This document shows, piece by piece, positions 7,901 to 13,715 of a DNA stretch of 21,984 bases. Below the pieces are notes generated by a model. It saw only the letters and a list, made by a program, of their open reading frames with translations. It did not search any database and was not told where the DNA came from. The stretch lies in IMG/VR virus record IMGVR_UViG_3300027368_000017, positions 1 to 21,984 of that record. One strand, written 5' to 3'. The stretch's first letter is position 1, and each line of letters begins with the position of its first letter. Source of the stretch: a virus. A program made the position numbers and the translations under genes.

Positions 7901-10900
7901 ATGACAGCTTGCTCAACAAATACGTGTGGGGTCGGTGGCTGGGGTGGTCCCCTGCCTGGAGATCCGGACAACAACTCTGTCCTGACGGCAACTCCCGCTT
8001 TTGGCGGGATTGATGTGTCTTGGTCTTACCCTGCAGTCAATCCTTTTGCAGTGGCTCACACCCTGTTGTTCAGGGGTTTGACCGATGACTTTAATTCTGC
8101 TTTGCAGATTGCCGTGGTATCGGGAAGCCAATACTACGACAAGACAGAAAACAATCAGCTGATCGAGTATTTCTACTGGATCAAGATTGTTTCTGTGAAT
8201 GGGACTGTGGGTGAATTGATTGGCCCAGCTTCTGCTGTTGCCAGACCAACCATCGATCAGATGATCGAATTGTTGAGTGGCAGGATCAATGCAGGTGTTT
8301 TGGCTCAGGCTTTGAGAACAGACATCGACCGTATTCAGTTGGTCAGTGCTGAGCTGCAAGCGGAAATTGACAGTCGTGACTTAGCCAACGCTGCAAACAA
8401 CCAGCTGTTGGCTGAGATGCAGGCAGAGATCAATGCTAGCTTAGGCATCATCACTGACGAGATCACCGGTCGCCAGGAAGGCGAGTCAGCACTGTTGGCA
8501 GAAGTCAATGCAGCGGCAGCAGCCATCGCTCTGGAGTCTACGACCCGAGCAGCGGCAATCCAGAACGAAGCAGATGCAAGAGCAACGGCTCTTTTGAATG
8601 AGGCTTCTGCCAGGTCTTCTGGTTTGTCTGCTTTGCAGACTCAGATCAACACGCTTCAGGCTGCGTCTTCTGGAGACTTTTCAGAGCTGCTGTCTGTGCT
8701 GCAGACAGAGCAGACAGCACGTATTGCTGGAGATCTTGCTGAATCGACATCCAGAGAGACTCTGGCTGTTCAGTTGCGTGGCGACTATCTAGGAAACAAC
8801 CCAGCCGAGTTGTCGACAGGTTTGTTGTTTGCTGAGCGCCAGGCTCGCATCGCGGCAGATGAAGTGGTGGTGAGTTCAATCACTGCGCTGAGTGCCACGG
8901 TCAGCACCAACGCTGCTGCACTGACTACGGAATCGACTACTCGAGCCAACGCTGATACGGCGCTTTCGAACCAGTTCACTACTCTGAGTGCACAGGTCAA
9001 CAACGCTACGACTGGTCTGCCTGCCACTCGAGCTACGCTGCTGAACAGCTACTACACCAAAACAGCGACCGACTCTGCGATCTCTGCTGCCACATTGAAC
9101 TTGGTTTCCAGCACTGGTTTGGCTACGGTTCTGGCCAGCTATCCGACCACAGCTTCGTTGACCCAGAACTACTACACCAAGTCTGCGACCGATGCTGCCA
9201 TCAGCAGTGCAACGACAACGCTGACAAGCACCTTCAATACAAGCCTTGGTTTGTATGTGCCAACGGCGACACTGACGAACAACTACTACACGAAGACGGC
9301 AACGGATCTGGCTATCTCGACAGCCTCGACTACGTTGTCTTCCGCGTTTGATGTGAAGCTTGGGCTGTACACGCCGACGGCAACGCTGACGAACCTGTAC
9401 TACACCAAGACTCAGGCCGACAGTGCGATCAGTGCAGCAACCCAGAACCTTGTTTCGACAACTGCTCTGAACACTGCGTTGACGGGCTACACGACAACTG
9501 CTGTTCTCAACACCAACTACTACACCAAGACTGCTGCAAACAGTGCGATCTCTGCAGCTGTTCAGAACTTGGTTTCGACTACGGCGTTGAACACTGCGCT
9601 CAGCAGCTATCCAACGACTGCCACGCTGACCACGAACTACTACACCAAGACGGCTGTAGATTCAGCGATCAGCTCTGCGACTCAGAGCCTGGTCTCGAAC
9701 GCCGGTTTGGCAACCACGCTGGCTGCGTACCCTACGACAGCGACGCTGACCAACAGCTACTTCACCCAGGCGCAGACCAACTCTGCGATCAGTCTGGCAA
9801 CCCAGAACCTGGTGTCGAACACAGGACTGGCTACGACTTTGGGCGGGTATGTCACCAACGCCACGTTGACGACGAACCACTACACAAAGACCCAGACCGA
9901 TTCTGCGATCAGCAGTGCGACAACTACCTTGGTGTCGAACGCTGGCTTAAACACAGCCTTGGGTGCGTACACGACAACCTCTGCGCTGCAGACAAACTAC
10001 TACACCAAGGCCCAAGCCAACACAGCAATCAGTGCTGCGATCACGACTTCCCAAACAACGCTGAACGGGAACATCGCTTCGGCTCAGTCCACGCTGCAGA
10101 CCAACATCAACACGGTCGATGGCAAGGTCACTTCGATCGGTGCTCGATACACAGCGGTGGTGTCAGCCAACGGTTTGGTTGGTGGCTTCGGGGTCTACAA
10201 CAACGGCACCGTGATTCAGGCTGGTTTTGATGTCAATGAGTTCTGGGTAGGCTCAAGCCAATCGAACAAGCGCAAGCCGTTCATCATCAGTGATGGCATC
10301 ACCTACATCGATGACGCTGCGATCAACAAGCTGACCTTCACCAAGCTGCGGGATGAGTCTGGCTCTGTGCTGATCGAGAACGGCAAGATCAAAGCCAACT
10401 ACTTGCAGGTTACTTCGATCAGCGGAGGTAACTACACTGGGTACGCTTGGCCTTCCAGCGGCACAGGCTTTCATCTTGGTCCTAGTGGTTTGCTATTGGG
10501 CAGGTACTCTGCAACCGATCCGACCAGCGGGTACTTCCAGTTCGACACCGCCACCAAAGCCATTTACATGAATGGTATGAGTATTGTGAACGGCCAGATT
10601 GCTTTCTCTGGCACGGTGATCAATACCGACAACATCAACAACGAGTCGGTCAACATCTTCAAGTTGGCTCGTGGTGCTGCGCTTCCGGATTACGTACGTA
10701 CCTACAAAGGAGGCTCAACTCCTGGAGTGACTGTCAATGGTTGGTTGCCTTTGCAGTTGGATGCAGCAGCTTTGAACAACAAATTAGGTGCGGTTGATTA
10801 CGACGCCTATCGTATTTTGTTACCTGCAGGCACTTACTTTTACGAGCTGTCAGTCCCAGTAAAGTGTGATGGTAGTGATACCAATGATGCTGCTTACACT

Positions 10901-11233
10901 GCCATCCTAGTAAATCCGCCAGGAACATCTGCTGGTTCTACGCAAACTGTGTGCGGTGAGGTAAATGTGGGAGGATGGAAAGACCCTCAGTATGTGTACA
11001 CATGCTGGGAGGAATACACCCCAACAAACTTTACTGTCCTCAGTACTGCAGGCGTAAACGTATTAGGTGACTGGCAAACTGGAACTATTTTTGGTGTCGG
11101 TCGATTTACAGTCAACGGGTCGACTTACATTTCTGCTGCTGTAAAAACTACGGACGGCGGTCCTGCACTTCGAGTTGTGGCTCGAAACGGGTATTCGACT
11201 ACGATTCTTCGTATCTGGCGTGACGCTACATAA
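7901..11233 (+). CDS. Tail-tip/tail-fibre protein with FN3, coiled coil, 40-residue repeats and DUF1983-like part
   Basis: A 1110-residue structural protein. Residues 1-25 are Cys/Gly-rich (TACSTNTCGVGGWGG). Residues about 26-112 form a fibronectin III-like domain (AFGGIDVSWSYP ... EYFYWIKIVSVNG). Residues about 120-375 are Ala-rich coiled coil with repeated ESTTRA-type segments. Nine 38-40-residue units beginning NYYTKTxxDxAIS occupy 382-717. Residues about 740-850 (SANGLVGGFGVYNNG ... FIISDGITYIDDAAINKLTF) resemble the DUF1983 part of lambda J-type tail-tip proteins. The remainder is a distinct distal tip with scattered cysteines, probably the receptor-contacting end. It starts at the ATG at 7901 with GGAG 8 bases upstream and heads the plus-strand block. 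It looks like the distal half of a J protein without the hub domains. Confidence 0.85.
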   Translation: MTACSTNTCGVGGWGGPLPGDPDNNSVLTATPAFGGIDVSWSYPAVNPFAVAHTLLFRGLTDDFNSALQIAVVSGSQYYDKTENNQLIEYFYWIKIVSVNGTVGELIGPASAVARPTIDQMIELLSGRINAGVLAQALRTDIDRIQLVSAELQAEIDSRDLANAANNQLLAEMQAEINASLGIITDEITGRQEGESALLAEVNAAAAAIALESTTRAAAIQNEADARATALLNEASARSSGLSALQTQINTLQAASSGDFSELLSVLQTEQTARIAGDLAESTSRETLAVQLRGDYLGNNPAELSTGLLFAERQARIAADEVVVSSITALSATVSTNAAALTTESTTRANADTALSNQFTTLSAQVNNATTGLPATRATLLNSYYTKTATDSAISAATLNLVSSTGLATVLASYPTTASLTQNYYTKSATDAAISSATTTLTSTFNTSLGLYVPTATLTNNYYTKTATDLAISTASTTLSSAFDVKLGLYTPTATLTNLYYTKTQADSAISAATQNLVSTTALNTALTGYTTTAVLNTNYYTKTAANSAISAAVQNLVSTTALNTALSSYPTTATLTTNYYTKTAVDSAISSATQSLVSNAGLATTLAAYPTTATLTNSYFTQAQTNSAISLATQNLVSNTGLATTLGGYVTNATLTTNHYTKTQTDSAISSATTTLVSNAGLNTALGAYTTTSALQTNYYTKAQANTAISAAITTSQTTLNGNIASAQSTLQTNINTVDGKVTSIGARYTAVVSANGLVGGFGVYNNGTVIQAGFDVNEFWVGSSQSNKRKPFIISDGITYIDDAAINKLTFTKLRDESGSVLIENGKIKANYLQVTSISGGNYTGYAWPSSGTGFHLGPSGLLLGRYSATDPTSGYFQFDTATKAIYMNGMSIVNGQIAFSGTVINTDNINNESVNIFKLARGAALPDYVRTYKGGSTPGVTVNGWLPLQLDAAALNNKLGAVDYDAYRILLPAGTYFYELSVPVKCDGSDTNDAAYTAILVNPPGTSAGSTQTVCGEVNVGGWKDPQYVYTCWEEYTPTNFTVLSTAGVNVLGDWQTGTIFGVGRFTVNGSTYISAAVKTTDGGPALRVVARNGYSTTILRIWRDAT
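9044..10051 (+). repeat. Nine tandem approximately 120-base repeats coding the fibre shaft
   Basis: Each unit encodes about 40 residues (two units encode 38) with the consensus N-Y-Y-T-K-T-x-x-D-S-A-I-S-x-A, then a variable L-V-S stretch ending T-A-T-L-T. Unit starts fall near 9044, 9164, 9278, 9392, 9512, 9632, 9752, 9872 and 9992; the last unit is incomplete. The reading frame is kept throughout, so copy number could change by recombination without breaking the gene. The pattern is that of a rod-like trimeric fibre shaft. Confidence 0.9.
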
Positions 11234-12249: not shown

Positions 12250-12585
12250 ATGACTGAACGAATCAAGCTGGTTCGAGGCGATACAGCTCCACAAATTCGC
12301 CTCACGCTGACTGATGAAGTCAGCACCACCCCCATCAATTTAACGGGCGCTACGGTCACTCTGCACTTCCGTGCAGTCGGTGCTGACACCGTGCTGTTCT
12401 CCCGTCCGGCATTCATCAACCAGGACATTGCTGCCACAGGTGTCTGTGTCATCTCCTGGGAAGAGGATGACTTGGATGTGGAGGCGGGTGATTACGAGGG
12501 CGAGATCGAGATCGTCAGGGCTGGTGGTGGCCGTGAAACGATCTACGACATCCTCAAGTTCCGAGTGCGAGAAGACTTCGCATGA
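12250..12585 (+). CDS. BppU-like baseplate/fibre N-terminal domain protein
   Basis: 111 residues: MTERIKLVRGDTAPQIRL, then INLTGATVTLHFRAVG and a DYEGEIEIVRAGG stretch before the end. The GDT-x-P opening followed by an L-T-G-A-T-V beta strand is the pattern of BppU N-terminal (DUF2479-like) domains that attach baseplate or fibre components. No membrane segment. The ATG at 12250 is chosen over an in-frame ATG 33 bases upstream because GGAG lies about 10 bases before it and the upstream ATG has no Shine-Dalgarno and falls in the leader hairpin. The stop overlaps the next start (ATGA). Confidence 0.7.
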   Translation: MTERIKLVRGDTAPQIRLTLTDEVSTTPINLTGATVTLHFRAVGADTVLFSRPAFINQDIAATGVCVISWEEDDLDVEAGDYEGEIEIVRAGGGRETIYDILKFRVREDFA

Positions 12586-13715
12586 GCTTTCGAGGGGTAG
12601 CCAATGCCGTCCGCGTCGCAGCCGTCAGGCTGAGCGCGGATGTTTCAGTTCGTCCTCTGAGTACCGTTCTGGTAGCTCGAGACGAACGCATTGCTGCCTC
12701 TTACACCGCCAGCAACATCCTGGCTGGGATTGTCCCGGCACACACCCATGCAGCGATTTCCGTATCGGCCGCTCAGCTGGCCTACGACCTGGGCGTCTGG
12801 CTGACTCACCTGAGGTATCAAGACAGCTTTGGTGCCATGGACAAGGCACTGTTCTCGTTCTTCAAGACCAAGACTGAAAACCTGCAGCTGGCTGAGGATG
12901 TCACGGCCCAGTTCTACAAGAACCTCAGTGAAACCCTTGGCTTGACGGACAAGCAGATCTTCTTGGTCTTCAAGAAGCTGGTTGATGAGGCTGGTGTTGA
13001 AGAGCTGTACCAGATGCGTTTTGCACGCAGCCGCTTTGAGCAGGCTGGTGCCACGGATGCCTATCAGCACATCCTGAACAAACAACCAAAAGAGACTGCC
13101 GGTGTACGAGATCTCCAAGGGTTTACCCTATACAAAGGCTTCAGTGAAGCCGGAGCAGTAGCTGAGAGCTCGCTCAGGGTTTTCACCAAGAACAACAACG
13201 ACTTTGCAAGATTGCTTGATCAACGACAGAAAAGCTTTTCAAAGTCGCTCAAAGACTTTTTGAATGCTACTGATGACGTTGACGGTGCTGCTTCAATCTT
13301 AGATGACCAGGAAATTCAGTTCATCAAACAGCGTACCGATCTTGGTTCGGTATCTGATTTGTTTGCGTTTGCAATGTCCTACGTCCGTGCCTATGAGGAC
13401 AGCTACAAAGCTCTGGACAAGATCATCTTTGGTTTTGGAAAGACGTTGCTCGAGACGAGCAGGTTTTCTGATTCAAAGAGCTTTGTATTCAGCAAGAAGC
13501 TGGCTGATTCATTTGGTTCAAGGGATGTGTTGGCCAAGGCAATGGCTCGACCTATAACCGATAATGCGCGTGCTGTGGATCTGAAGGCATTTGCCCTCAG
13601 TAAAGCACGAACGGATGCGGCCACATTGTCCGACAGTGGTTCGTTGAGAAGTCAAGGTTACTGTGATTTCTCTTACTTCTCAGAAGATTACGTCGGCACC
13701 TTCAGAACTTTCTAA
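12582..13715 (+). CDS. Virion protein built of 18-residue repeats, possible beta-solenoid fibre
   Basis: 377 residues, coupled to the preceding gene by an ATGA overlap. Residues 1-68 are a non-repetitive, Val/Ala-rich head. Residues 69-350 are about fifteen units of 18 residues, with Asp/Glu at position 1, a hydrophobic residue at 7, Lys/Arg at 9 and Asp/Glu at 13 (for example DKIIFGFGKTLLETSRFS and DSKSFVFSKKLADSFGSR). One 10-residue insert (231-240) and one 20-residue unit (259-278) interrupt the register. The C-terminus, GYCDFSYFSEDYVGTFRTF, ends in a motif like the YFAEDYVG tail of other phage structural proteins. Location among fibre genes supports an elongated virion component; the exact role is unknown. 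Confidence 0.7.
   Translation: MSFRGVANAVRVAAVRLSADVSVRPLSTVLVARDERIAASYTASNILAGIVPAHTHAAISVSAAQLAYDLGVWLTHLRYQDSFGAMDKALFSFFKTKTENLQLAEDVTAQFYKNLSETLGLTDKQIFLVFKKLVDEAGVEELYQMRFARSRFEQAGATDAYQHILNKQPKETAGVRDLQGFTLYKGFSEAGAVAESSLRVFTKNNNDFARLLDQRQKSFSKSLKDFLNATDDVDGAASILDDQEIQFIKQRTDLGSVSDLFAFAMSYVRAYEDSYKALDKIIFGFGKTLLETSRFSDSKSFVFSKKLADSFGSRDVLAKAMARPITDNARAVDLKAFALSKARTDAATLSDSGSLRSQGYCDFSYFSEDYVGTFRTF
12786..13631 (+). repeat. Fifteen 54-base (18-residue) protein-level repeats
   Basis: Units begin at residues 69, 87, 105, 123, 141, 159, 177, 195, 213, 241, 259, 279, 297, 315 and 333. By direct alignment, position 1 is acidic in 15 of 15, position 9 is Lys/Arg in 13 of 15, and position 13 is acidic in 14 of 15. 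The DNA of the units has diverged, so the repeat is conserved at protein level. Confidence 0.8.

Follow-up and report, generated by a model that had tools for sequence, protein, structure and literature searches.

What does a phage build from a protein that consists largely of 18-residue repeats? The question is raised by a gene in the window, the whole 21,984-nucleotide stretch of viral DNA analysed here (positions 1 to 21,984 of IMG/VR virus record IMGVR_UViG_3300027368_000017), for which an earlier note had described a virion protein of fifteen such units and suggested a solenoid or fibre fold.

The 18-residue repeat and its family

A recount on the translated ORF bore out the 15 units of 18 residues over residues 69-350, which start at residues 69, 87, 105, 123, 141, 159, 177, 195 and 213 and, after an insert, at 241, 259, 279, 297, 315 and 333 (Table 1). 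The charge pattern first reported was reproduced, with an acidic residue at unit position 1 in 15/15 units and at 13 in 14/15, Lys/Arg at position 9 in 13/15 and a hydrophobic residue at 7 in 14/15. Acidic pairs at lags of 18, 36 and 54 residues number 26, 21 and 18, versus shuffle means of 4.9, 4.6 and 4.3 (sd ~2), and identical, basic and hydrophobic residues likewise peak at lag 18. The register score, for which every offset and one 10-residue insert were allowed, is 31, and none of 200 shuffles exceeded 15. The insert that had been said to break the register is present but not single, since a +2 break follows the +10 one. Nor is it a mere interruption: its motif DD[VLIF][DGN]G is a conserved landmark found in 75/93 relatives (twice in 8 of those), many relatives have a 20-residue unit after it, corresponding to a recurrent +2 break, and both breaks recur in the family.

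Table 1. Features of the repeat gene and its cassette in the window
Feature	Position	Strand	Remarks
BppU_N-like protein, 122 aa	12217..12585	+	111 aa from in-frame ATG 12250; stop overlaps repeat-gene start by 4 nt
18-residue repeat protein, 377 aa	12582..13715	+	ATG start
N-terminal segment ahead of units, residues 1-68	12582..12785	+	
First array, nine 18-residue units, residues 69-230	12786..13271	+	
Conserved +10 insert DDVDGAASIL, residues 231-240	13272..13301	+	Opens family motif TDDxDGxASxxDDQE
Second array, six units, residues 241-350	13302..13631	+	+2 break at 277-278
C-terminal cap, residues 351-377	13632..13712	+	Best-conserved part of the family
Phage_tail_fib / GP4 gp80-like protein, 152 aa	13728..14186	+	
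Variable tail fibre, 1092 aa	14199..17477	+	N-terminal anchor motif; C-terminal Peptidase_S74 chaperone domain

The repeat appears to be old and selected rather than a product of recent slippage, as had been proposed, because Tandem Repeats Finder (score 30) detects no DNA-level tandem repeat in the window gene and most of 54 non-redundant relatives have their strongest acidic signal at lag 18. Mean pairwise identity between units is ~33% for DNA and 15% for protein in a register that omits the +2 break. The protein has no Pfam match, in line with the suspicion that it lies outside named families, and the uncurated family of which it is part is large, with at least 540 relatives in IMG/VR and 68 from a scan with a second member; in a set of bacterial and archaeal genomes with a single genome for each species, only two turned up. 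Full-length tblastn searches of phage records with the window protein and two relatives gave no match at E 1e-5, and a short cap query matched Achromobacter phages in such records. The cap, GSLRSQGYCDF[ST]YFAEDYVG, is near-invariant across the family. In many relatives, a 9-residue repeat (e.g. FARIKSSVS), half the main period, stands in the N-terminal segment ahead of the 18-residue units (for example in L135:887-2329, L076 and L158); lag-9 identity reaches z ~20, and some of these segments still hold 18-residue units.

The consensus of 700 units has an acidic residue at position 1, a hydrophobic one at 5, an acidic one at 7, hydrophobic residues at 11 and 13, Lys at 15 and Leu at 17, and is the originally described pattern shifted by 12. 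Odd positions hold 13.2 bits of information versus 4.0 for even ones. Because the conserved positions are odd-numbered and in phase across units, the unit is probably beta-strand-like with one buried or interacting face, and this alternation favours an extended beta structure that may form only in an oligomer. The proposed solenoid found no backing in monomer prediction: AlphaFold2 models of the window protein and of L080, a very regular relative, have mean pLDDT values of 51 and 47, the repeats of L080 are modelled with almost no secondary structure, and since both models are low-confidence the term solenoid is unproven. Sequence searches of the repeat against solved structures returned only weak unrelated matches. 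A helical reading, in which 18 residues make five helical turns, was rejected, as the helices modelled in window residues 36-131 are not reproduced in the L080 repeats and the odd/even alternation also opposes it. We consider it unlikely that the units form a monomeric beta-solenoid with 18 residues per coil, either an RTX-like beta-roll or a left-handed beta-helix. The known geometry of both folds would suit 18 residues per turn, and the in-phase alternation and the 9-residue repeats of the N-terminal segment fit as well; however, the core GGxGxD of the RTX nonapeptide GGxGxDxUx occurs in 0/93 proteins, Lys at consensus position 15 (76% of units) lies on the conserved face, and no confident solenoid came from AlphaFold2 for either protein.

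A conserved four-gene cassette

The repeat gene stands second in a conserved cassette that encodes, in order, a BppU_N-like protein, the repeat protein, a tail-collar/GP4-fibre-like protein and a variable fibre. The BppU_N-like gene adjoins upstream in 84/91 testable relatives by script, its stop overlapping the repeat-gene start by 4 nt in 52/84 and by 1 nt in 25/84; the other seven have a BppU_N-like profile match nearby, and their ORF starts may be mis-set. By the same approach, the Gp80-like gene lies directly downstream of the repeat gene in 85/85 relatives, and the gene after it carries the anchor motif in 66/73, with a variant seen by eye in six of the remaining seven; the variable fibre of the cassette begins TIxTRxxKGSPLTNxEVDxNFxNLN. 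BppU_N (PF10651) matches 15/39 relatives of the upstream protein (best E 2.1e-5) and does not match the window's own at 0.1. Among 34 relatives of the downstream protein, Phage_tail_fib matches 10 and GP4 fibre I gp80 (PF23140) weakly matches 24; the window protein itself scores 18.3 bits against the latter, under the cut-off of 27, and finds the PDB chain 8jou_a at E 0.76. In most IMG/VR relatives the Gp80-like protein is ~48-82% identical to the window's, the remaining window genes are mostly not found and the flanks outside the cassette differ. Elsewhere in the window, positions 7901-11233 encode a 1110-aa tail fibre protein whose translation has tandem units around YYTKT(A/Q)xxxAIS.

Occurrence in different phages and likeness to known fibres

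The cassette is common to N4-like podophages, GP4-like podophages and siphophage-type loci. The window's own phage group would be N4-like, going by G003, a 71.5-kb relative with the window's gene order that encodes a 3450-aa virion RNA polymerase (phrog_2206, E 0) and N4-like portal and head genes; by analogy with G003, a 3468-aa frame in the window's longer twin contig (L112:2775-13181) is probably also a virion RNA polymerase. In the GP4-like podophages G011 and Achromobacter phage CF418P1 and in a Xenophilus prophage, the trio is placed after a GP4-type adaptor (8jov_2, E 3e-42 in G011 and 5e-30 in CF418P1), and G011 also has a match to the GP4 nozzle (8jov_A, E 5e-69). In the Achromobacter siphophage JWX, gp22 has the repeats and cap after the tape measure, with a Gp80-like gene next; the version in EBPR siphovirus 1 is short. 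The repeat protein of Aeromonas phage phiA008, which has a strong lag-18 signal, lies between BppU_N-like and Gp80-like genes, and in a Gammaproteobacteria MAG contig the cassette comes after a long upstream frame that is tail-fibre-like by look. A four-gene set shared by such different phages is apparently part of the host-gripping apparatus. Three candidates were rejected: in Synechococcus phage BUCT-ZZ01, which combines a Gp80-like gene with an anchor-motif fibre, a baseplate hub gene takes the upstream place of the repeat; Achromobacter phage phiAxp-1 differs from the family in its C-terminus; and the BppU_N-like match in Roseobacter phage CRP-6 is followed by an unrelated gene.

The closest catalogued family is PHROG 384, siphophage virion structural proteins such as JWX gp22, which share with the window protein the C-terminal ~100 residues, with acid-hydrophobic-acid units and a YFxExYVG cap, and the Gp80-like gene next. 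While JWX gp22 matches profile positions 1-392, the window protein covers only positions 294-388 of 393 (E 0.0016) and lacks the large N-terminal region (~290 profile residues). In addition, JWX gp22 directly follows the tape measure gene, without a BppU_N-like gene between. The annotation of these relatives and the fixed place in a putative host-recognition cassette are consistent with the earlier reading of a virion protein with a fibre fold, both parts of which we infer from context rather than observe.

Arrangements of a similar kind are known from other phages. For instance, in the Bcep22/GP4 trio (BcepIL02 gp55-gp57), a GP4-type adaptor is followed by three small genes, for Gp80, a repeat protein and a 92-93-aa partner; gp55 and gp57 match the GP4 chains 8jou_a and 8jou_D, with a further repeat protein, gp56, encoded between them. 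Here, however, the gene order is reversed and the middle repeat is unrelated: the Bcep22-like middle protein has no profile match to the 18-residue repeat and no match in the PDB, the BppU_N-like protein has no profile link to the 93-aa partner, and the Gp80-like protein has a short profile link to the Bcep22-like Gp80 family (24 columns, probability 24%). Owing to the reversed order and the unrelated repeat, the two sets are alike in arrangement and not in membership. GP4 Gp80-like proteins are themselves common, with 266 phage records matched by the 8jou_a query, 224 of them mycobacteriophages. Compared by description, gp80-gp82 of Anabaena phage A-1(L) likewise form a three-gene virion fibre of repeated modules, a neck fibre in which ~14 gp81 trimers make a bead chain (PMC10966104), but there the repetition lies in many copies of one small trimer, in contrast to units within one chain. 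The host-recognition module of Alteromonas phages A5, V22 and P24 is also a receptor-binding gene set common to podo-, sipho- and myophages, and differs, by description, in its central fibres and a tail fibre with a DUF4376 chaperone (PMC10579305). In Alishewanella phage LSH1, gp34-gp36 are again three co-occurring virion genes by description; one of the products matches GP4 8JOU by HHpred, one has an Ig fold and one is poorly predicted, and the authors cite the GP4 protein as a fibril connecting the adhesin with the tail collar, although the large LSH1 protein differs in having a lyase-like domain (PMC13243795).

A candidate shaft of the host-adsorption fibre

Gene order, gene coupling and conservation support a reading in which the repeat protein is probably a virion-attached shaft or spacer, with a length given by the number of units, that joins the host-binding fibre to an adaptor on the virion side. 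Docking on the tail would fall to the BppU_N-like protein and/or the N-terminal segment of the repeat protein, and the 18-residue units would make up an extended, beta-rich rod, probably in oligomeric form only. The C-terminal cap would then dock the Gp80/Phage_tail_fib-like protein, which may in turn hold the variable distal fibre via its conserved N-terminal anchor. Gain or loss of whole units could alter the reach of the fibre and leave these interfaces untouched. Counting against such a shaft are the repeat's want of a match among solved structures, the low confidence of the monomer predictions and the analogous Bcep22-like trio, whose middle protein is a different repeat and was not among the proteins detected in JC1 virions, together with the short or missing profile links of the flanking proteins to that trio.

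The repeat protein might instead be a scaffold that lines up several Gp80-like copies in a bead-chain fibre, with the copy number set by the number of units. The GP4 fibre entry 8jou, with 10 Gp80 chains and 3 chains of the 93-aa partner, offers a precedent, as does the bead chain that A-1(L) makes from a three-gene operon (PMC10966104), and the Gp80-like protein is conserved while unit number varies; yet the A-1(L) chain is built from gp82, gp81 and gp80, its description mentions no repeat backbone, and the best-conserved possible interface here is the cap and not the units, so that we regard such a scaffold as improbable. Least of all do we expect an assembly chaperone or disordered linker that is not kept in mature virions: the low predicted structure would fit, as would the virion proteome of JC1, in which both trio neighbours were detected and the Bcep22-like middle protein was not (PMC9144972), but unit spacing is strictly conserved, the cap is invariant, the C-terminal match region belongs to a "virion structural protein" family and the BcepIL02 middle gene is annotated as virion-associated.

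For the favoured shaft, unit number would be the property that sets its length. Between 3 and 29 units were detected per relative (11 in L080, 7 in L132 and 18 in L134), and among close relatives the differences come in whole units, being exactly 3 or 7 in the five pairs with the highest N-terminal identity. Less close pairs show other differences too, partly because simple patterns defined the array boundaries. We tentatively suggest, as a possibility only, that a mobile adhesin-fibre cassette of podo- and siphophages carries the 18-residue-repeat shaft, of undescribed fold, as a ruler, which sets fibre length or Gp80-like copy number and is adjusted as whole units are gained or lost. The natural series of 3-29 units is material for asking whether phages adjust how far their fibres reach through the number of repeats, and one shared module would tie podophages to siphophages. 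Together, the units, the cap, the two flanking genes and the anchor motif may serve as a signature by which to locate the adsorption apparatus, and with it the variable fibre that binds receptors, in many uncharacterised environmental phages. Within the array itself, a second cap-like motif (YCDxTYFxEDYV) occurs in seven relatives, L040, L053, L059, L060, L061, L065 and L088.
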